IMG/VR virus record: IMGVR_UViG_3300030108_005504
Coordinates: 1 to 21,674 of that record
From: a virus
Direction: 5' to 3' (one strand)
DNA: 21,674 nucleotides
In this document: positions 1-17,532 of the stretch, piece by piece
Position numbering within the stretch: position 1 is the stretch's first letter
Layout: each line of letters begins with the position of its first letter
Program-made: the position numbers and the translations under genes
The notes under the pieces: model-generated
What the model saw: only the letters and a program-made list of their open reading frames with translations
What the model was told of the DNA's origin: nothing
The model's database searches: none

Positions 1-177
1 GGATCCTGCCGCCGCTGGATCTCCACAACCTGTAGTATCTCCTATCCTAACAACTTTGGCCCCATTAACAAAAACTTTTGCGGCACCTGTGGCATAGGAA
101 GTTTGATGGAATGGATTAGGAGTTGGAGAAGCATGTCCAACATGTTTGTCTGTTCCTACTCTCACTATTCCTGGCAT
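1..177 (-). CDS. PAAR-domain tail spike tip protein (T4 gp5.4-like), partial
   Basis: The reverse strand reads from an ATG at 177 to the window edge (59 codons, C-terminus missing). The translation starts MPGIVRVGTDKHVGHASP and continues with alternating Gly, small and charged residues, including KVFVNGAKVVRIGDTT and a GCG turn. This is the repeat pattern of PAAR proteins, which form the sharp zinc-bound cone capping the gp5/VgrG spike. The His residues near the start (HVGHASP) and the later Cys are the type of residue that binds the tip metal. The ATG overlaps the TAA stop of the upstream gp5-like gene by one base (TAATG), so translation is probably coupled. Membership of the PAAR family is a strong pattern match. 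The T4 gene number is inferred from adjacency to gp5. Confidence 0.8.
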   Translation of the reverse strand, partial: MPGIVRVGTDKHVGHASPTPNPFHQTSYATGAAKVFVNGAKVVRIGDTTGCGDPAAAGS

Positions 178-5999: not shown

Positions 6000-7010
6000 A
6001 TGCAAACTTTTAAACGTGCGGCTGTGTTTGCTGATATACACTTTGGCAACAAAGGTAATTCGCGCCAGTTCAACGAAGACTGTGATCGCTATGTCGATTG
6101 GTTCATTGAACACGCTAAAACACAAAATTGTGAGACGTGTATATTCCTAGGTGATTGGCATCATCAACGTGCCACCATCAATATTACTACCCTACAACAT
6201 TCCTTAAAAAATTTAGAAAAGATTGCTTCTGCTTTTGAACAAAACTATTTTATTGTAGGCAATCATGACTTATATTATAAAGATTCACGTTCGGTGAATT
6301 CAATAGAATTTGCCAAACACATTAAAAATTTAAATCTAATTCTGGAGCCATACTACACTGAGGATTGTGCGTTTATACCTTGGTTGGTGTCAGAAGAATG
6401 GAAGCAACTCAAAGATATGCCTGCGAAGCCGTACATATTTGGGCACTTTGAGTTGCCAACTTTCTTGATGAATGCTATGGTGTCTATGCCTGATACAAAT
6501 GAACTAAAAGCAGATGATCTTAATCATCATGGCTATGTTTTTTCTGGACATTTTCACAAACGCCAGATGAAAGGCAATATACATTACGTCGGCAACGCTT
6601 TTCCACACAACTACTCAGATGCTAACGATTTCAGACGTGGTTATATGGTATTGGAACATGGTGGTGACCCTGTGTATCATGATTGGAAGGAAATGCCTGT
6701 GTATCAAACACTCAAACTAAGCGAAGTATTACACAATACTTCAGTGCTGAAAAAAAGAGCTTATGTAAGAGTAGATATTGATACAGAAATCACGTATGAA
6801 GAATCAAACTTTATCAAAGATACATTTATTGGTCAGTATAAACTGAGAGAAATGACATTTATACAACAACGTGATATAACAGCACATGATTCGACTGATG
6901 TTTCTCAAGCATTTGAATCAATTGACGAAATTGTGCATTCGCAGTTAATGTCTGTTGATTCTGAACACTATGACAGAACTTTGTTGTCTGAAATTTATAA
7001 AAATTTATGA
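6000..7010 (+). CDS. 47: Recombination endonuclease subunit gp47 (Mre11/SbcD-like)
   Basis: This 336-residue metallophosphoesterase forms the nuclease half of the gp46/gp47 complex, which resects DNA ends for recombination-dependent replication and helps degrade host DNA. All core motifs are visible: DIHFG at 12-16, GDWHH at 51-55, GNHD at 87-90, GHFE at 148-151 and SGHFHK at 182-187, which supply the two-metal site. The length agrees with T4 gp47 (339 residues). Its TGA overlaps the ATG of gp46 by four bases (ATGA), so the two subunits are probably made in coupled amounts. It begins almost directly at a sigma70-type promoter, consistent with early expression. Confidence 0.93.
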   Translation: MQTFKRAAVFADIHFGNKGNSRQFNEDCDRYVDWFIEHAKTQNCETCIFLGDWHHQRATINITTLQHSLKNLEKIASAFEQNYFIVGNHDLYYKDSRSVNSIEFAKHIKNLNLILEPYYTEDCAFIPWLVSEEWKQLKDMPAKPYIFGHFELPTFLMNAMVSMPDTNELKADDLNHHGYVFSGHFHKRQMKGNIHYVGNAFPHNYSDANDFRRGYMVLEHGGDPVYHDWKEMPVYQTLKLSEVLHNTSVLKKRAYVRVDIDTEITYEESNFIKDTFIGQYKLREMTFIQQRDITAHDSTDVSQAFESIDEIVHSQLMSVDSEHYDRTLLSEIYKNL

Positions 7011-9414: not shown

Positions 9415-10047
9415 TTCCTTACACGCTTTTTTAACTTCTTTGTCAAATTTGCCTTGTTTAACTTTTTGAATGTATTTTTTATTAGCATCAATTTTGAACA
9501 AATCCTTTAATAGTGTAGGATTATTGTAGGCAATGGGGAAATCAATTTGTTTGGATAAACTTTGCAGGTATATGGATCCATACAAATACAATGCTTCATG
9601 TGAAACAAAATAAGCCTCTTTTAAAAATTTTAATTGATCAATAAAATGTAAAGTTGAAGGTTTGCCTCGGACTCTTTTTTGTTGTTGTTCCAAAATGTTC
9701 CTATCCCTAGCAATAACCAATATTTTTACTGTGAAATATTTTTTTGCTTCAGCAATAAATTGTTTGTATTTTGGAATATGAGACTTTTTATTTTTAACAT
9801 AAGGACATGAAATAGATGTAACAAAATTTTTACATGCTCCTGGTTTGAAATGTTTAAGTTTTTTAGGATCCTGCCAATATTCCTGAAATGGTTCAAGATG
9901 ATGTCCTTGCCATTCTTGCCACCTCATATTCCAACCATTCACCTTAGGATGTAGATTGAAAATTTTAGCAAGTAAATGGTTACCGGACCCTTGTGGCCCG
10001 GTAACTACAAGCAGTTTAGGCAATTGCTGGTTTTTTGTGTGTTCCAT
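9409..10047 (-). CDS. Sulfotransferase-like P-loop protein
   Basis: This 212-residue protein begins with LLVVTGPQGSGNHLLAKIF at 12-30, a P-loop followed by a helix and HPKVNGW. This resembles the 5'-phosphosulfate-binding loop of sulfotransferases more than an NTPase Walker A, because the usual GK[S/T] is GSGNH. A beta strand ending in ILVIARDRN near 130 could supply the 3'-phosphate-binding Arg. The C-terminus is strongly basic. The gene starts within the last 32 bases of the symporter gene, in another frame, so it is probably coupled to it. The start lacks a clear Shine-Dalgarno site. A kinase-like function is the alternative. The acceptor is unknown; phage sulfotransferase-like genes in marine viruses often lie among glycan-modifying genes. 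Confidence 0.5.
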   Translation of the reverse strand: MEHTKNQQLPKLLVVTGPQGSGNHLLAKIFNLHPKVNGWNMRWQEWQGHHLEPFQEYWQDPKKLKHFKPGACKNFVTSISCPYVKNKKSHIPKYKQFIAEAKKYFTVKILVIARDRNILEQQQKRVRGKPSTLHFIDQLKFLKEAYFVSHEALYLYGSIYLQSLSKQIDFPIAYNNPTLLKDLFKIDANKKYIQKVKQGKFDKEVKKACKES

Positions 10048-11467
10048 ATTGACTTATTAATAAAGCTAATATAGGTGATCCAAAAATAGCTATTAGTGTT
10101 CCTTGGAACGCTGTATCTGTGTACCCTAATTTGCCGAGAACAAAAAGGATTTCGCCCACACTAGCACAAATGGCAATGCCCCAGAACATGCCTTGTTCAG
10201 TTATCCAATGTGGTTTCATCAATGCTATCATTGACGGGAGCCAAACAGCCGCCCTAAGCACAGCAAAAAACAAAAACAAATACACCAACTGCATGCCTGG
10301 AATGTTTGCTACAATTAATCCTGCTATTGCTAAAGCAATCATCCCCCAACGAGCCCATGCAATCTCAGAACCTCCCTTGAACTGATTGAATATGTCATGT
10401 CCAGTCATGTTGGCCACAGAAGCAAACTGTGAATCAAGGATTGCCACTAATCCAGCAAACACCATAAACACAAACACAATGGCAGCTGCTGGTGGAAGAA
10501 ACGTAGCAATAGTAATTGCGTTAGTAGTGCCCACCATATTGCCTGGAATATCTAATCCAGCGCCTGCGGCTAAAAATCCTAATAGTCCCATCATAATAGG
10601 CACCACAATGAAAACAAATGACGCCAACACATATGAAGGTATGATGGAGTCTTTTTTAATAGCAAATGCCCTTTGATAAAATGAATTATCACCCCATGGG
10701 CCTCCTAGATGTCCTAAGAAAGCTGCCGCACCAAAACCAGTAAACACTCCCCAAGCAAAAGGTGTACCAAATATTGCGGCTCCTTCACCTGTGCGTCCTC
10801 CTAGTCCTGCCACAACTGTGTCCCATCCTCCTGCTGAGGAAATTGCCCATGGCACAAGTATTATTACACCTGTCCAAACCACAACAATCTTGATAACTTC
10901 TGTAATTACAGTTGCTTTGAGTCCTGTTCTAAATGAATATAATATAGCCACTCCAGCCATAAGAAAAGTTGCTAGAGTATAATCAATACCTGTCAAAACT
11001 TGAACAGTTTTCGAACCTGCTAATAAATTTATAGCAAAGGCACAAGTGGCTAGCAGTAACATTTCTGCTACAAATAATGACTGCACCCTGCCAGAAAATC
11101 TTTTACGTAGATAACCAGAAAATGTAAACCCTTCTGGTTCATTGGATCTTATACGTTTGGCAAAATAAGCGAACGCACCTAAAGTTAGGAAATTGCCCAA
11201 ACAAAACCAAAACAATCCAACTAAGCCGTTTACATAGGCCTGTTGTGTTGATATAAAAAGTCCAGGTGCCCACAGCCAAGCGGCGGCGACACTAAGTGAC
11301 CCTTGAAATGTGCCTAGTTCTCGCCTTGCGACAAGAAAACTAGTTTTTGAATCGTTGTAACCCCTTGAATACCAATAAGTCATCAATAAAGCAAATGCTC
11401 CGTATACTGCTAATATGGAAATTCCTGTGGATGGGGTAAACAACGGAAATAGTGACGTTACGTCCAT
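10016..11467 (-). CDS. Sodium:solute symporter (SSS) family transporter
   Basis: This 483-residue integral membrane protein has about 13 hydrophobic segments, for example ISILAVYGAFALLMTYWYS near 17-35, VVWTGVIILVPWAI near 195-208 and AAAIVFVFMVFAGLVAI near 325-342. The family pattern is seen in the cytoplasmic YNDSKTSFLVARRELG loop before TM2, the GLKATVITEVIKIVVVW segment, GPWGDNSFYQRAFAIK near 255-270 and the LDSQFASVANMTGHDIF block after TM9. It most resembles the urea/DUR3-type and related branches; the substrate cannot be decided. It has a strong AGGAG Shine-Dalgarno site at 11475-11479, seven bases before the ATG, unlike the leaderless style of neighbouring genes. A full-length transporter in a T4-like phage is unusual and suggests an auxiliary metabolic gene taken from a host. 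The frame is intact. Confidence 0.85.
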   Translation of the reverse strand: MDVTSLFPLFTPSTGISILAVYGAFALLMTYWYSRGYNDSKTSFLVARRELGTFQGSLSVAAAWLWAPGLFISTQQAYVNGLVGLFWFCLGNFLTLGAFAYFAKRIRSNEPEGFTFSGYLRKRFSGRVQSLFVAEMLLLATCAFAINLLAGSKTVQVLTGIDYTLATFLMAGVAILYSFRTGLKATVITEVIKIVVVWTGVIILVPWAISSAGGWDTVVAGLGGRTGEGAAIFGTPFAWGVFTGFGAAAFLGHLGGPWGDNSFYQRAFAIKKDSIIPSYVLASFVFIVVPIMMGLLGFLAAGAGLDIPGNMVGTTNAITIATFLPPAAAIVFVFMVFAGLVAILDSQFASVANMTGHDIFNQFKGGSEIAWARWGMIALAIAGLIVANIPGMQLVYLFLFFAVLRAAVWLPSMIALMKPHWITEQGMFWGIAICASVGEILFVLGKLGYTDTAFQGTLIAIFGSPILALLISQYGTHKKPAIA

Positions 11468-11953: not shown

Positions 11954-12457
11954 ATGCACCAGGCCTCACCTGAAATTGTTGACTCCATCACACAGTGGTT
12001 GGAAACATTTGTTGAACAACCACATCCTAGTTTTGGAAACATGCCTCCATGTCCATATGCACGTCAATTCCGGTTACAAAACAAAGTCCAAATTATTGAA
12101 GTCAATACTGCCATATGGGATGAAACAAAAAAACAAATGGTCAATTGGACCGACGAATGGGAGGCAGTAATTGTTGTATCAAAAGTTACACAAATGAGTC
12201 ATGGCTTGTTGAGTGAAAAAATATTCGCATTAAACAAGCGTTTCAGACATCATGATCTAGTCGCACTGGAAGATCATCCAGACAGCGTAGAAACTATCGA
12301 CGGCGTTGTTATGAATCATGGTAGTTTAGTATTGGTGGTAATACAAAGATTAAAAAGGCTCAACCAATTTTCAAAAAATTTACAAAAAACAAAATATTAT
12401 GACAAATGGAGCCAAGAAAATTTAGATGATGTTGTAACTTGGCGGTTCAACGACTAG
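11954..12457 (+). CDS. Conserved-looking hypothetical protein with a CPYA motif
   Basis: I do not recognise a named family. The 167-residue product is soluble, with an N-terminal helix DSITQWLETFVEQPHP, then GNMPPCPYARQFRLQNKV near 28-45, a beta-rich centre (VQIIEVNTAIW, WEAVIVVSKV), LVLVVIQRLKRLNQFSKNL near 125-143 and an acidic end. The GNMPPCPYAR pattern gives a single Cys in a Pro-rich turn and looks like a conserved active or binding site. The gene is divergent from the GIY-YIG gene (16 bases apart). A TATAAT at 11946-11951 is so close to the ATG at 11954 that either the message is leaderless or the true start is further in, for example the ATG at 12041. It overlaps the next, convergent gene by 11 bases. 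Confidence 0.6.
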   Translation: MHQASPEIVDSITQWLETFVEQPHPSFGNMPPCPYARQFRLQNKVQIIEVNTAIWDETKKQMVNWTDEWEAVIVVSKVTQMSHGLLSEKIFALNKRFRHHDLVALEDHPDSVETIDGVVMNHGSLVLVVIQRLKRLNQFSKNLQKTKYYDKWSQENLDDVVTWRFND

Positions 12458-13178
12458 CTGGTTTATGCAGTCCATATACGCCTTTGTACACACTTTCCAA
12501 ATCCTCAAGATCTTCAACAAAACAATCAGCCTTAATGTGTTGAGCATACATGCCCATGTCTTGACTCCATTCTTTGCCTGTCCACCATTCAAAGCCAGGT
12601 ATGTTGGCCTTGTAAGCACAAGATTGATCATATGAGGCTCCTAAGTAAAACCAATTGTAGCCTTTTTGATGTGCTGTTCTTATTTCATAATCCATAGAGA
12701 ATCTGCCAAGATGTAGTCCAGGATCAGCATAGTCCCAGGCATACTGCCAGTTGTCAATGGAATGTCCATATTTTGTCCAAACTGACCATGCTACTAATTT
12801 GTCTTGATAGTAATAGCAGTAAAATGTTTCTTTGTCAGATATGTCAGCATTAGTAAATGGATATGAGTCATGAAACTTATTGTATTCAATGAATCTATCA
12901 TATACATCTTGAAGTAGATTTTGATGTTTCATAGCAAATGTGCCAGACCATTTTTCTACGGACACGCCTTTGCGTTGTTTGTATTTCGAAGCTGCCTTGA
13001 TATAATTTTTAATATTGATCCTAGAGGACCTAACCTGTAGCCAATTAGGGCCAACATCAATGAATCCTTGGGCAAGAGCTTGTTCTTGTTCTTCGGGATC
13101 CACTTGAGCCCAAACTTTGACCCACTGCATATCATATTTGTCAAGTCTGCCATATGGATGTTCATACCAAATCTTCAT
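12447..13178 (-). CDS. Aminoacyl-tRNA-protein transferase-like protein (ATE/Bpt-type GNAT fold)
   Basis: From the ATG at 13178 the protein has 243 residues, the usual length of bacterial leucyl-/arginyl-transferase Bpt. The order of features fits that family. QEQALAQGFIDVGPNWLQVRS at 31-51 sits where Bpt has its LLxxGFRRSG...P segment, and FTNADISDKETFYCYYYQDKLVAW follows. The C-terminal stretch 149-204 (DYADPGLHLGRFSMDYEI, KGYNWFYLGASYDQSCAYKA, PGFEWWTGKEW) parallels the YtFYDPd...SLGtyailqqI...YLGY...MxYKaxFxPxExl block. The N-terminal Cys residues of arginyltransferases are absent. Such enzymes transfer an amino acid from tRNA to the N-terminus of a protein and mark it for ClpS/ClpAP. A different GNAT acyltransferase (FemX-like) is the alternative. 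The longer start at 13196 is rejected because the promoter lies inside it. Confidence 0.55.
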   Translation of the reverse strand: MKIWYEHPYGRLDKYDMQWVKVWAQVDPEEQEQALAQGFIDVGPNWLQVRSSRINIKNYIKAASKYKQRKGVSVEKWSGTFAMKHQNLLQDVYDRFIEYNKFHDSYPFTNADISDKETFYCYYYQDKLVAWSVWTKYGHSIDNWQYAWDYADPGLHLGRFSMDYEIRTAHQKGYNWFYLGASYDQSCAYKANIPGFEWWTGKEWSQDMGMYAQHIKADCFVEDLEDLESVYKGVYGLHKPASR

Positions 13179-13184
13179 TGTGTC

Positions 13185-13214
13185 ATTATAACACATCTAG
13201 CCAAAATGACACAA
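13185..13214 (-). promoter_or_regulatory. Sigma70-type promoter of the transferase-like gene
   Basis: On the reverse strand: TTGTGT at 13214-13209, an 18-base spacer and a perfect TATAAT at 13190-13185. Six bases (GACACA) separate the -10 from the ATG at 13178, so the predicted first transcribed base is the A of the start codon. The -35 match is weaker than at gp55 and gp47. Confidence 0.6.
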
Positions 13215-14343: not shown

Positions 14344-14351
14344 TATTTATA
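14344..14351 (-). promoter_or_regulatory. Perfect T4-type late promoter box
   Basis: The reverse strand reads TATAAATA, overlapping the TAA stop of the gp51-like frame (14349-14347). Five bases (TTCAC) separate it from the ATG at 14338. The same ATAAATATTCAC string occurs at the gp26 late promoter (15448-15437). Confidence 0.85.
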
Positions 14352-14577
14352 GCAATGGCAGTTTTGTCTTTTTAACATTGTCATAGTTGTCTTTGATTAT
14401 TTTTCCTATGATCTCTCTGTCATCTGGACTGAGACAATACGCCTCGCTGAGACTGATGCCACCACGCATGTGCCACATGATACGCATGATGTAATCTTTA
14501 AGTTGTTTGATTTCGTTGTCTAGAGTTTTGAAGTATTCAACTAGGTCAGATTCCGAGAGCGAAAGGATTTTAGCCCG
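14347..14577 (-). CDS. gp51-like extension, probably reached by -1 frameshift from gp26
   Basis: In the -1 frame relative to gp26 there are 76 codons before TAA: RAKILSLSESDLVEYFKTLD, NEIKQLKDYI, MRIMWHMRGGISLSEAYC, LSPDDREIIGKI and a Lys-rich end TKLPLL. The amphipathic helices and the MWHMRGG...LSP motif look like a conserved domain. In T4, gene 51 (baseplate hub assembly) follows gene 26. There is no ATG, GTG or TTG in this frame between the TGA at 14612-14610 and the ATG at 14487, which is inside the likely domain and has no ribosome binding site. Entry by slippage at AAATTTTTTC (14586-14577) explains this and would give a fusion of about 358 residues. Identity with gp51 is by position and size, not by clear sequence match. 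Confidence 0.6.
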   Translation of the reverse strand, partial: RAKILSLSESDLVEYFKTLDNEIKQLKDYIMRIMWHMRGGISLSEAYCLSPDDREIIGKIIKDNYDNVKKTKLPLL

Positions 14578-15422
14578 AAAAAATTTGAAGCATCCAGTGT
14601 GATAGGAGTTTCAAATGTAGCAGGAGATCCCTGTTCTACCAAGGACTGAGGTGATTGTACAGTGATCGGCTTGATGGATCCTTGTGATCTTAGATCGTCC
14701 ATACCTGCTTTGATCATGTTTGCTTCTTGTGAATCGATGTTCATCACCCAATTCATAATCTGTGATCTGTCTGTCACTGTTTCCTCTTGAGGTGTAGTGA
14801 CTGACTCAATCGAGTCAACCAAAGTTTCAATGTTGTAGTTTGTTAATTTACTGAATATTTCTTGATACTTGATTAGTTTCTGTTCTTCTGTAAGGTTGGC
14901 GTCGTTCATTGTTTTGATCATGCGTTGCTCTTCATATGATTTAAGTTGCAGTTTACTCATCTGTTGATAGTTAAGCGGCTTAATTTTTACAATGATGCCA
15001 TTGCTCATTGTGATGTTGTCATTGATGTGTACCTGCGATAATTTTTCCATAGTTTGATTGAGATCGACCTGTACAGTGATTGTTTCTTTGGACTTTGGTA
15101 CAGTCACCATCATGTCCATGTTGGATCCGTATGTTGCTATCCTAATTGAAACTAATACAGCATCCAAATCAATTGACGGCATGTGCCATGGATTAACAAT
15201 GGATGGTACACAAGATTTAATCACATCCACTGTGGCCTGTCCGTTCATTAAGGAATCAGGTTGCTTCATGACAATTTCGTCTCGAGCAGTCATGGCATAC
15301 ACAGAATGTTCATCAGTGACAGAGTCCGCCAATGAACCAGTCGGCCAATAGCGACCACCACTTGGCAGTTTCATTGCCAATTGTGGTTGCCTGAAATAAT
15401 TTTCTAGTGGTTTTTGTGTCAT
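14541..15422 (-). CDS. 26: Baseplate hub assembly protein gp26-like (PF12322-type)
   Basis: This 293-residue protein begins MTQKPLENYFRQPQLAMKLP followed by SGGRYWPTG, the characteristic opening of T4-like base plate proteins of the gp26 family. MTARDEIVMKQPDSLMNG follows near 43-60, then VIKSCVPSIVNPW near 67-79. The middle has VKIKPLNYQQMSKLQLKSYE, similar to tail chaperone/gp26 proteins. The length is somewhat above T4 gp26 (208 residues). The gene ends 12 codons after a slippery site, with the gp51-like frame continuing beyond. A late box lies 19 bases upstream of the ATG. It is divergent from the tape measure gene, 37 bases apart. The arrangement suggests a chaperone of tape measure or hub assembly. 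Confidence 0.75.
   Translation of the reverse strand: MTQKPLENYFRQPQLAMKLPSGGRYWPTGSLADSVTDEHSVYAMTARDEIVMKQPDSLMNGQATVDVIKSCVPSIVNPWHMPSIDLDAVLVSIRIATYGSNMDMMVTVPKSKETITVQVDLNQTMEKLSQVHINDNITMSNGIIVKIKPLNYQQMSKLQLKSYEEQRMIKTMNDANLTEEQKLIKYQEIFSKLTNYNIETLVDSIESVTTPQEETVTDRSQIMNWVMNIDSQEANMIKAGMDDLRSQGSIKPITVQSPQSLVEQGSPATFETPITLDASNFFGLKSFRSRNLT
14577..14586 (-). other. Candidate -1 ribosomal frameshift site
   Basis: Read on the reverse strand as codons of gp26, TCA AAT TTT TTC contains two overlapping heptamers of the form X XXY YYZ: A AAT TTT and T TTT TTC. Slippage on T TTT TTC keeps Phe-Phe and moves the ribosome into the 76-codon open frame downstream. No strong downstream stem-loop was found by eye. 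Confidence 0.6.
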
Positions 15423-15459: not shown

Positions 15460-17532
15460 ATGGATGATATAATTCAGGACATCAAAAATGCCTTAGGCAC
15501 TGATTTACCAAAATGGGCCACAGAAAGCACCCTTGCGGAAATAAAAAAAATTCTTGAAGGTTCAGGCGATGGATTGAAAAGTCTAAAAAATGCCAATGAA
15601 AACATAGGTAGTAAATTCAAATCAGGAACTTTCATTGGCGGACTGTATCAAGCACAGTTAGAGAGCGAAAAATTAGCATCTAAAACATCTGTGGTACGTG
15701 ATGTATTGGGCGAAATAGCACAAATAGGTGGCATTGCCGCCAGATCAGTGTTTAACAGCTCAGGAAAGTTTTCAGATCTTAATCCAATCATTGATGCAAC
15801 TTCAGGAGCAGCTGCCAATTTAGCATCACAGTTTGGTCCATTAGGACAGGTGGTAGGAGCCACTATTCTAGCTTTTAGTAAGTTGAGACAGGCACAAAAT
15901 GAAATATTAGATAATCAGGTTCAAGGATTCATGCAGTTGAGTAAATCAGGACTGAACTTGACCACAGATATACAAGATCTAAATGTGGCAGCTTTGAGAG
16001 CAAGATTGAATCTTGATGTTTTGGCTGATGTGGTCACCGCCAATGCGTCTGGCATCACAGCACTAGGTGGAGAATTCACAAGAGGAGTAAGTAGATTCTT
16101 ACAACTACAGACTGACATCAGTGAACGTGAAAACAACATGCTAGAACGTATGGGCCTCAACATACAAGAACAGGCCATGTTCCTAGGTGAATTCATCGAA
16201 AACAATCAGCGTAATGCTGTGTTGGCCAACATGTCGCAAGGACAACTTGCTGACACTGTATTTGGACTTGCCAAAAACATGAGAATCCTTGCTGAACTGA
16301 CAGGTGAGGACATCAACACACAACGACAAGCACAGATGCAGGTGGCCGGAGACATGGCCTTCCAAGCAAGAATCAGGGAACTTACAATAGCCGGACAAAC
16401 AAAAGAAGCTGCCGCTCTTAATCAATTGGTGGCTACACTTGAGACTGTCAATCCTGATCTAGCACGTTTGGTAAAACAGAGTGTCAGCACTGTGGGCATG
16501 GGATTTGATGCACAGACAGCTGTGTTGGCTCAAGTGTTGGGCGGACAAGAAAGCATCAATAAAATTTTAGGAGGTGTGGAAGACATTGAAGATGTGCCCA
16601 AAGTTGTAGCAGACCTCTTGGAACTGTCCAATCAAGCTGCCAACAGCACCAACAACCTGCAGATGGCACAATTGTCACTGGGCGGAATAACAAATGAATA
16701 TTTCCAAGCACTTCAAGATGTAATTGAATCAGGTGGAAGATTTGATAACATCCTCAAGGCAGCCGAAGAAGATGGTATATCAGTAGCAGAGTATCTCGAA
16801 CAGATGTTTGCTGATACCACAGACGGCGCAGAAACAGTAGCCACTTCCAGCATGTTGCTGATGGATGCCGCCATTGAACTTGACAAAGCTGCCAAAACAT
16901 TTAATGCCGCTGTGTTGGCAAATTTTGACGATCTGTTTGACAAGCAAATTACATCCAACAATAAATTAGCAGAAGATTTAAAAATAATAACAAGCGACAA
17001 TGCTAACGTTTTTCAAAAGAGTTTGGCAGGATTCGAACTATTGTTAGAAACAAGTGGAGCGGCCACGTTCGATAGATACATAGGCGAATTTGTTGACGCA
17101 CTTACTGGAGACTTTTTCAACTATTCAGAGGGCGGATTTTTTGGATCTCTTAAAAATCTAATAGTAGGAGCAACACCTAATCTAGAACAAAATTACACTG
17201 GCGGCCTTGGATTTCCTGGACAACTCAGTATGGTAGGAGAAGGTGGTGCTGAATTAGTAAGATTTGGTCAACTAGGCGAAGTAATCAATAATACAACAAC
17301 AACAGACATCATGGGTGCCGCGGCAGGCATTGTAGACGCACTAAAATCACCAGTCAGCACACAACAACAAAATACCAACCAGATAGCTGACACAACCACT
17401 CAACTACAAAACAACATAAGAAATATGTCAGACGATCTTCTCAAACAAATTGCTGAAACACTCAATCAATCCAACATGATTCAATCCAACATGCTCAAAG
17501 AAACCAAAAGGGTTAAACGCTTTGACTATTAA
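15460..17532 (+). CDS. Tail tape measure protein (gp29-like)
   Basis: The 690-residue protein is largely helical and rich in Ala, Gln and Leu, with long stretches lacking Pro. Hydrophobic segments lie near 105-150 (ATSGAAANLASQFGPLGQVV, then GATILAF), as in tape measure proteins that set tail length and enter the cell envelope during infection. A Gly-rich patch GGLGFPGQLSMVGEGGAELV near 583-602 is typical of tape measure C-terminal regions. A final coiled segment includes a small tandem repeat (QSNMIQSNML, encoded near 17468-17497). T4 gp29 has 590 residues. It is next to gp26/gp51, whose products act in hub and tape measure assembly in T4. No Shine-Dalgarno site precedes the ATG. The function is assigned by size, composition and context. 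Confidence 0.7.
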   Translation: MDDIIQDIKNALGTDLPKWATESTLAEIKKILEGSGDGLKSLKNANENIGSKFKSGTFIGGLYQAQLESEKLASKTSVVRDVLGEIAQIGGIAARSVFNSSGKFSDLNPIIDATSGAAANLASQFGPLGQVVGATILAFSKLRQAQNEILDNQVQGFMQLSKSGLNLTTDIQDLNVAALRARLNLDVLADVVTANASGITALGGEFTRGVSRFLQLQTDISERENNMLERMGLNIQEQAMFLGEFIENNQRNAVLANMSQGQLADTVFGLAKNMRILAELTGEDINTQRQAQMQVAGDMAFQARIRELTIAGQTKEAAALNQLVATLETVNPDLARLVKQSVSTVGMGFDAQTAVLAQVLGGQESINKILGGVEDIEDVPKVVADLLELSNQAANSTNNLQMAQLSLGGITNEYFQALQDVIESGGRFDNILKAAEEDGISVAEYLEQMFADTTDGAETVATSSMLLMDAAIELDKAAKTFNAAVLANFDDLFDKQITSNNKLAEDLKIITSDNANVFQKSLAGFELLLETSGAATFDRYIGEFVDALTGDFFNYSEGGFFGSLKNLIVGATPNLEQNYTGGLGFPGQLSMVGEGGAELVRFGQLGEVINNTTTTDIMGAAAGIVDALKSPVSTQQQNTNQIADTTTQLQNNIRNMSDDLLKQIAETLNQSNMIQSNMLKETKRVKRFDY

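Follow-up and report, generated by a model that had tools for sequence, protein, structure and literature searches.

A conserved slippery heptamer at the gp26/gp51 junction of a T4-superfamily phage and a predicted -1 frameshift joining the two reading frames

The window discussed here is the whole of an IMG/VR record of 21,674 bases, which may itself be a genome fragment, and it bears a T4-like gene set that includes the portal gp20, a late sigma factor and baseplate proteins. The phage is a T4-superfamily myophage of a diverged, jumbo-phage-like lineage, and its gp26 locus raises the question of whether translation ends at the gp26 stop codon or also continues, through a -1 frameshift, into a gp51-type domain. 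Elsewhere in the window, a transporter-like membrane protein of 483 aa (10016-11467, minus strand) is encoded among the structural genes, and the product of 12447-13196 (minus strand) has ATE_C/GNAT-like matches (PF04377, E 1.3e-6; PF13480, E 2.3e-5).

The G/GT chaperone system of phage lambda has been described, and G-T frameshifting was stated to be conserved in long-tailed phages "except T4" (Atkins et al. 2016; PMC5009743). For T4, gp26 and gp51 are both entered among the hub assembly chaperones, with the function of gp51 given as unknown (PMC3004832). Passages of two later papers credit the assignment of gp26 and gp51 as tail assembly chaperones to Vladimirov, Gautam and Davidson 2022 (via PMC10885494 and PMC12846349). 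In these passages, the PRFect paper cites Vladimirov et al. 2022 for the occurrence of one short and one long chaperone gene in some T4-like phages (PMC10885494), and the paper on phage Adele refers to that study for the poly-T signals at which T4-like chaperone genes shift frame (PMC12846349). As conveyed there, T4-like chaperones have already been published in general, and the present step is an incremental one on a known kind of system. The features of the locus are as follows.

14541..15422, minus strand: gp26, predicted short form of the tail assembly chaperone, 293 aa, stop TAG at 14543-14541
14577..14583, minus strand: conserved slippery heptamer T TTT TTC, kept in relatives
14580..14586, minus strand: second heptamer A AAT TTT, overlapping the first, common in near relatives and not universal
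14541..14576, minus strand: 0-frame tail of gp26 past the slip site, 11 codons and TAG, pLDDT about 32-45
14347..14577, minus strand: -1 frame extension, gp51-type C-terminal domain of the predicted long form, 76 codons
14611..14613, minus strand: TGA at which the -1 frame opens, lying upstream of the slip site
14485..14487, minus strand: first ATG of the -1 frame, 30 codons past the slip site
15460..17532, plus strand: divergent neighbour, probable tape measure or other virion structural protein, 690 aa, no Cys

The gp26 product matches PF12322 (T4_baseplate) at E 4.5e-16 and 59.6 bits, above the curated cut-off of 24.5, and phrog_150 (baseplate hub) at E 6.7e-19, and Sinorhizobium phage Phosso shares 32% identity with it over 96% of its length. 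Its final codons read TCA AAT TTT TTC GGG ... TAG, and the stretch AAATTTTTTC at 14586-14577 of the minus strand holds both A AAT TTT and T TTT TTC in frame, in the position and phase given by the original prediction. Recounting likewise upheld a gp26 stop 12 codons past the slip site, with 11 sense codons followed by TAG as the twelfth, and a -1 frame open for 76 codons (14577-14350), to a TAA stop at 14349-14347. The claim that this frame lacks a start also stands, with no ATG, GTG or TTG between its opening and the ATG at 14487-14485, which is too late for the whole conserved -1 domain; the opening TGA, placed originally at 14612-14610, lies instead at 14613-14611.

By itself, a slippery heptamer is ordinary in this AT-rich window, where 61 in-frame X XXY YYZ heptamers are spread across 18 genes, and shuffling of the gp26 codons places one within the last 20 codons in 8.5% of cases (P 0.085). 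Such figures favour a reading in which a poly-T stretch fell by chance near the end of gp26, ahead of an unrelated or decayed frame. What stands out is the length over which the -1 frame stays open: of 1042 stretches of 76 codons tested in shifted frames of genes of the window, none is free of stops, and past the other heptamers of the window the -1 frame is open for at most 51 codons, the single exception leading from gp47 into gp46. Evidence from the window alone shows more than chance only in part. At the exception, an in-frame A AAT TTA (6995-7010, plus strand) lies near the end of gp47 (6000-7010) and the -1 frame enters gp46 (start 7007), which is probably a chance effect of the 4-base overlap of the two genes.

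Comparison with relatives is decisive. A tblastn search with gp26 matched 68 phage records, mostly of jumbo phages, and the -1 domain used alone as the query matched Phosso and the Agrobacterium phage Atu_ph07, both times at the junction with gp26 and in the -1 phase. The junctions read in 17 such phages all bear T TTT TTC at the same Phe-Phe (T TTT TTT in XacN1), with an open -1 frame thereafter. The heptamer also occurs in cyanophages S-RIM8, P-HM1, S-CAM7 and Syn1, in Pseudomonas phage pf16, in Stenotrophomonas phage BUCT608 and in KVP40, and is kept in nearly all named relatives; existing annotations of S-RIM8, P-HM1 and Syn1 already label a portion of the -1 frame gp51 or "baseplate hub assembly catalyst". 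In IMG/VR, a search with a single protein found no relative and an alignment of six proteins, too distant from one another, yielded no usable search pattern, and the pattern was built from three close proteins. Only peptides of the N-terminal half were used, which renders the resulting sets blind to the slip site.

T TTT TTC is present in 80 of 80 window-type loci (44 distinct junctions, the window included) and in 80 of 80 cyanophage-type loci (79 distinct), counts that are uncorrected for phylogeny, and the site is also shared by groups whose proteins are about 20-30% identical. Whether relatives keep the heptamer, a question raised with the original prediction, is thus answered for T TTT TTC by 160 of 160 IMG/VR relatives and most named phages; A AAT TTT, proposed alongside it, proved common but not universal. 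The conserved Phe-Phe is written TTT TTC in 53 of 53 window-type and 80 of 80 cyanophage-type distinct genes, and its two codons are the most invariant of the 20 and 38 conserved two-fold codons of the respective groups, for which the median invariance is 0.78 and 0.75. TTC is the minority Phe codon (22-31% of Phe codons), and other Phe-Phe dipeptides of the same genes are written as T TTT TTC in 0 of 11 and 0 of 89 cases. The extension measures exactly 76 codons in 40 of 40 distinct full-length window-type sequences, the -1 frame being open in all, and is similar to that of the named jumbo phages (E 1.2e-21). Conservation of the site in 160 IMG/VR loci and about 24 named phages, together with the codon constraint and the homology of the -1 domain, argues against a chance origin, a reading already refuted by these sequence comparisons and accorded practically no credence.

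A gp51-like domain also follows gp26 in the -1 frame, at junctions bearing no canonical heptamer, in two Ackermannviridae-like phages, and likewise in Ackermannviridae and in Vibrio phage K483; the -1 domain of SFP10 carries YSIFEISESMPW. Non-canonical junctions read GAG ATT TTC ATT TAA and CTT TTC AAG TAATG (loci L027 2640-2840, L201-L215; L028 2560-2770). The Ackermannviridae and K483 junctions may use a non-canonical shift or coupled reinitiation.

Candidate stimulators of the shift were sought on both sides of the slip site. The best stem begins 5-6 nt past the heptamer in 27 of 40 window-type loci and is mostly of 9-13 bp, and downstream folding in this group exceeds that of synonymously recoded sequences (mean z -2.5), a signal confined to that stretch. 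When the 40 window-type loci are taken together, RNAalifold returns no consensus hairpin, apparently as a result of the 3' arm occupying one of two registers. Taken register by register, the hairpin is supported by a covariation score higher than in any of 500 shuffles or any slid control. Over the first 55 bases past the slip site in L032-L109, the AGGATC-like 5' arm is kept and its partner lies at +26..36 or +44..54, an apparent switch of hairpin register. A hairpin was sought and not found in the window (z +0.6 to -0.5) or in its subclade (L031, L040, L050, L054), so that only the heptamers are seen in the window. Upstream, a GAGG-like stretch lies within 20 bases of the slip site in 57 of 78 cyanophage-type loci (L111-L190) and in 1 of 40 window-type loci, at the distance of a Shine-Dalgarno-like stimulator, and may only reflect conserved Glu-Gly codons.

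The same features bear on whether the frames could be joined by transcriptional slippage on the T run rather than by the ribosome. A homopolymer run of six is indeed present in all loci, but slippage by bacterial polymerases normally needs longer homopolymer runs. Moreover, nearly all loci have six T followed by C, always in the X XXY YYZ phase, and the covarying hairpin of the relatives stands at a spacing typical of ribosomal shifting, all of which renders a transcriptional origin extremely unlikely.

The domain encoded past the slip site can be related to T4 gp51, which is itself a PF12322 protein (E 3.9e-52) with a C-terminal tail. The -1 extension of the cyanophages matches this tail in hhalign (E 4.8e-10, probability 96.6%), and gp51 aligns end to end with the cyanophage fusion at E 2e-15, as does the cyanophage fusion with the window-type fusion at E 2.6e-16. 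Between gp51 and the window-type fusion, the end-to-end alignment reaches E 5.5e-5 (probability 66%), and the match of the isolated window-type extension to the gp51 tail is weak (E 0.011, probability 3.8%). Because of this weak match, the equivalence of the window-type domain to the gp51 tail draws on its position, on the whole chain and on the cyanophage bridge. The name gp51, given to the -1 domain in the original prediction, is justified in that the cyanophage -1 domain is homologous to the T4 gp51 tail and the fused chains are colinear.

It could still be argued that gp51 stands alone as a small protein, translated from a start of its own or through coupling at the gp26 stop. The -1 frame is annotated as a gene of its own in many records, TAATG or ATGA overlaps occur in KVP40, Phosso and Atu_ph07, and 34 of 78 cyanophage-type loci show a start pattern of (3) or (3, 6) codons past the slip site. 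Against this, the window lacks a start for 30 codons even though the startless region encodes conserved protein, and 26 of 40 window-type and 15 of 78 cyanophage-type loci are devoid of a start up to codon 12. The absence of a start originally noted therefore extends to those window-type relatives and not to the cyanophages generally, which often have one 3 codons past the slip. An independent gp51 would also leave the invariance of T TTT TTC unexplained, and the gp51 of T4 carries the domain joined to a gp26-like one. Separate production as the sole explanation is accordingly very unlikely; a free domain may in addition arise by coupled reinitiation in KVP40 and many cyanophages, whose -1 frame has a start shortly after the slip.

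The claim that gp26 and gp51 are joined by a -1 frameshift in the manner of G/GT is thus supported by heptamer conservation, by codon constraint and by gp51 homology. The site, the open and conserved -1 frame and the relation of the fusion to gp51 can be read from the sequences, and they argue strongly that gp26 is the short form, and the gp26-gp51 frameshift fusion the long form, of a tail assembly chaperone, a reading held with high confidence. Most ribosomes would stay in frame and terminate at TAG, yielding the 293-aa short form, and some would slip by -1 on T TTT TTC, where both tRNAs could re-pair from UUU/UUC to UUU/UUU. Those that slipped would produce a 358-aa fusion bearing the gp51-type helical domain. 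AlphaFold2 models the -1 domain as helical with a mean pLDDT of 90.7, and the 0-frame tail past the slip site is predicted to be disordered. Neither Pfam nor PHROGs recognised the -1 domain of the window, a sequence search of solved structures gave nothing significant, and Foldseek found no significant match for either model in the PDB (HK97 2ob9_B, E 5.2, TMt 0.45). By analogy with lambda gpG/gpGT, and in keeping with the assignment of the T4 proteins in the literature, the tape measure protein would carry a coat of the short form, and tail tube subunits would be brought in by the long form; slippage in cells, its efficiency and the chaperone action are inferred.

The likeness to lambda G/GT and P2 E/E+E' lies in a short protein accompanied by a C-terminally extended -1 form, with the slip near the 3' end of the gene, and P2 also shifts on a T-run heptamer. 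In lambda and P2, the extended form is of low abundance and the chaperone gene lies beside the tape measure gene. Unlike those systems, the window proteins gave no sequence match or significant structural match to lambda or P2 proteins, and the gene is divergent from, rather than co-transcribed with, its tape-measure-like neighbour. The neighbouring gene (15460-17532) begins 37 bases from gp26, a spacing that was correctly noted; its identity as a tape measure gene, which was asserted at the same time, is putative. The gene is divergently transcribed and gave no tape-measure family profile match, including in a profile comparison with T4 gp29. Homologues divergent to gp26 were found by phmmer in 24 of 39 window-type relatives, the complete ones spanning 691-943 aa, and they vary in length as tape measure genes do. 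The C-terminal VGEGGAELVRFG of the neighbour resembles a tape measure motif, an identity that the profile comparisons did not confirm.

Closer parallels are found among T4-like phages. The gp26/gp51 of cyanophages (Kyanoviridae), gp26 of KVP40 and that of pf16 share with the window the same heptamer in the same place, a -1 domain and a single PF12322 gene, and differ in an extension of about 55-71 codons of different sequence, compared with 76 in the window, and in being often annotated as separate genes. For phage Adele of the Vandenendeviridae, a conserved -1 shift has been described whose poly-T site neighbours the tape measure gene; this phage belongs to a different family and its site is given as GTTTTT (PMC12846349).

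T4 itself resembles the window in that its gp26 is a homologue of the short form and its gp51 is colinear with the frameshift fusion, but it has two separate divergent genes and no slippery heptamer in place of one gene and a frameshift; with gp26 and gp51 so separated, T4 has no frameshift. T4 gp26 keeps the Phe-Phe as TTC TTT, its two-gene relatives are likewise devoid of the heptamer, and gp26 of the T4 type ends in TTC TTT or other non-slippery codons. PF12322 occurs in one copy in every single-gene frameshifter genome in which the model scored, the gp26 of SCTP-2 being missed by it, and in two copies in T4 and RB43. In an unrooted tree with large distances, 14 two-gene proteins split from 18 single-gene proteins with support of 98/96, a division that fits a single duplication. 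It appears reasonably likely that frameshifting came first in the T4 superfamily as a whole and that the T4 lineage duplicated the gene, whereupon gp26 would have lost its slippery codons and gp51 would have become the in-frame fusion; the hairpin would have been lost, and the tandem heptamers kept, in the subclade of the window.

The lambda-type frameshift between a short and a long chaperone is thus indicated in the wider T4 superfamily, in a gene that annotation wrongly splits in two or leaves as an unlabelled gap, and the annotation of many jumbo phages and cyanophages is correctable in this respect. It becomes possible to test whether the gp26 and gp51 of T4 are a single recoded gene in duplicated form, and, if true, duplication out of recoding would explain T4 as the textbook exception.
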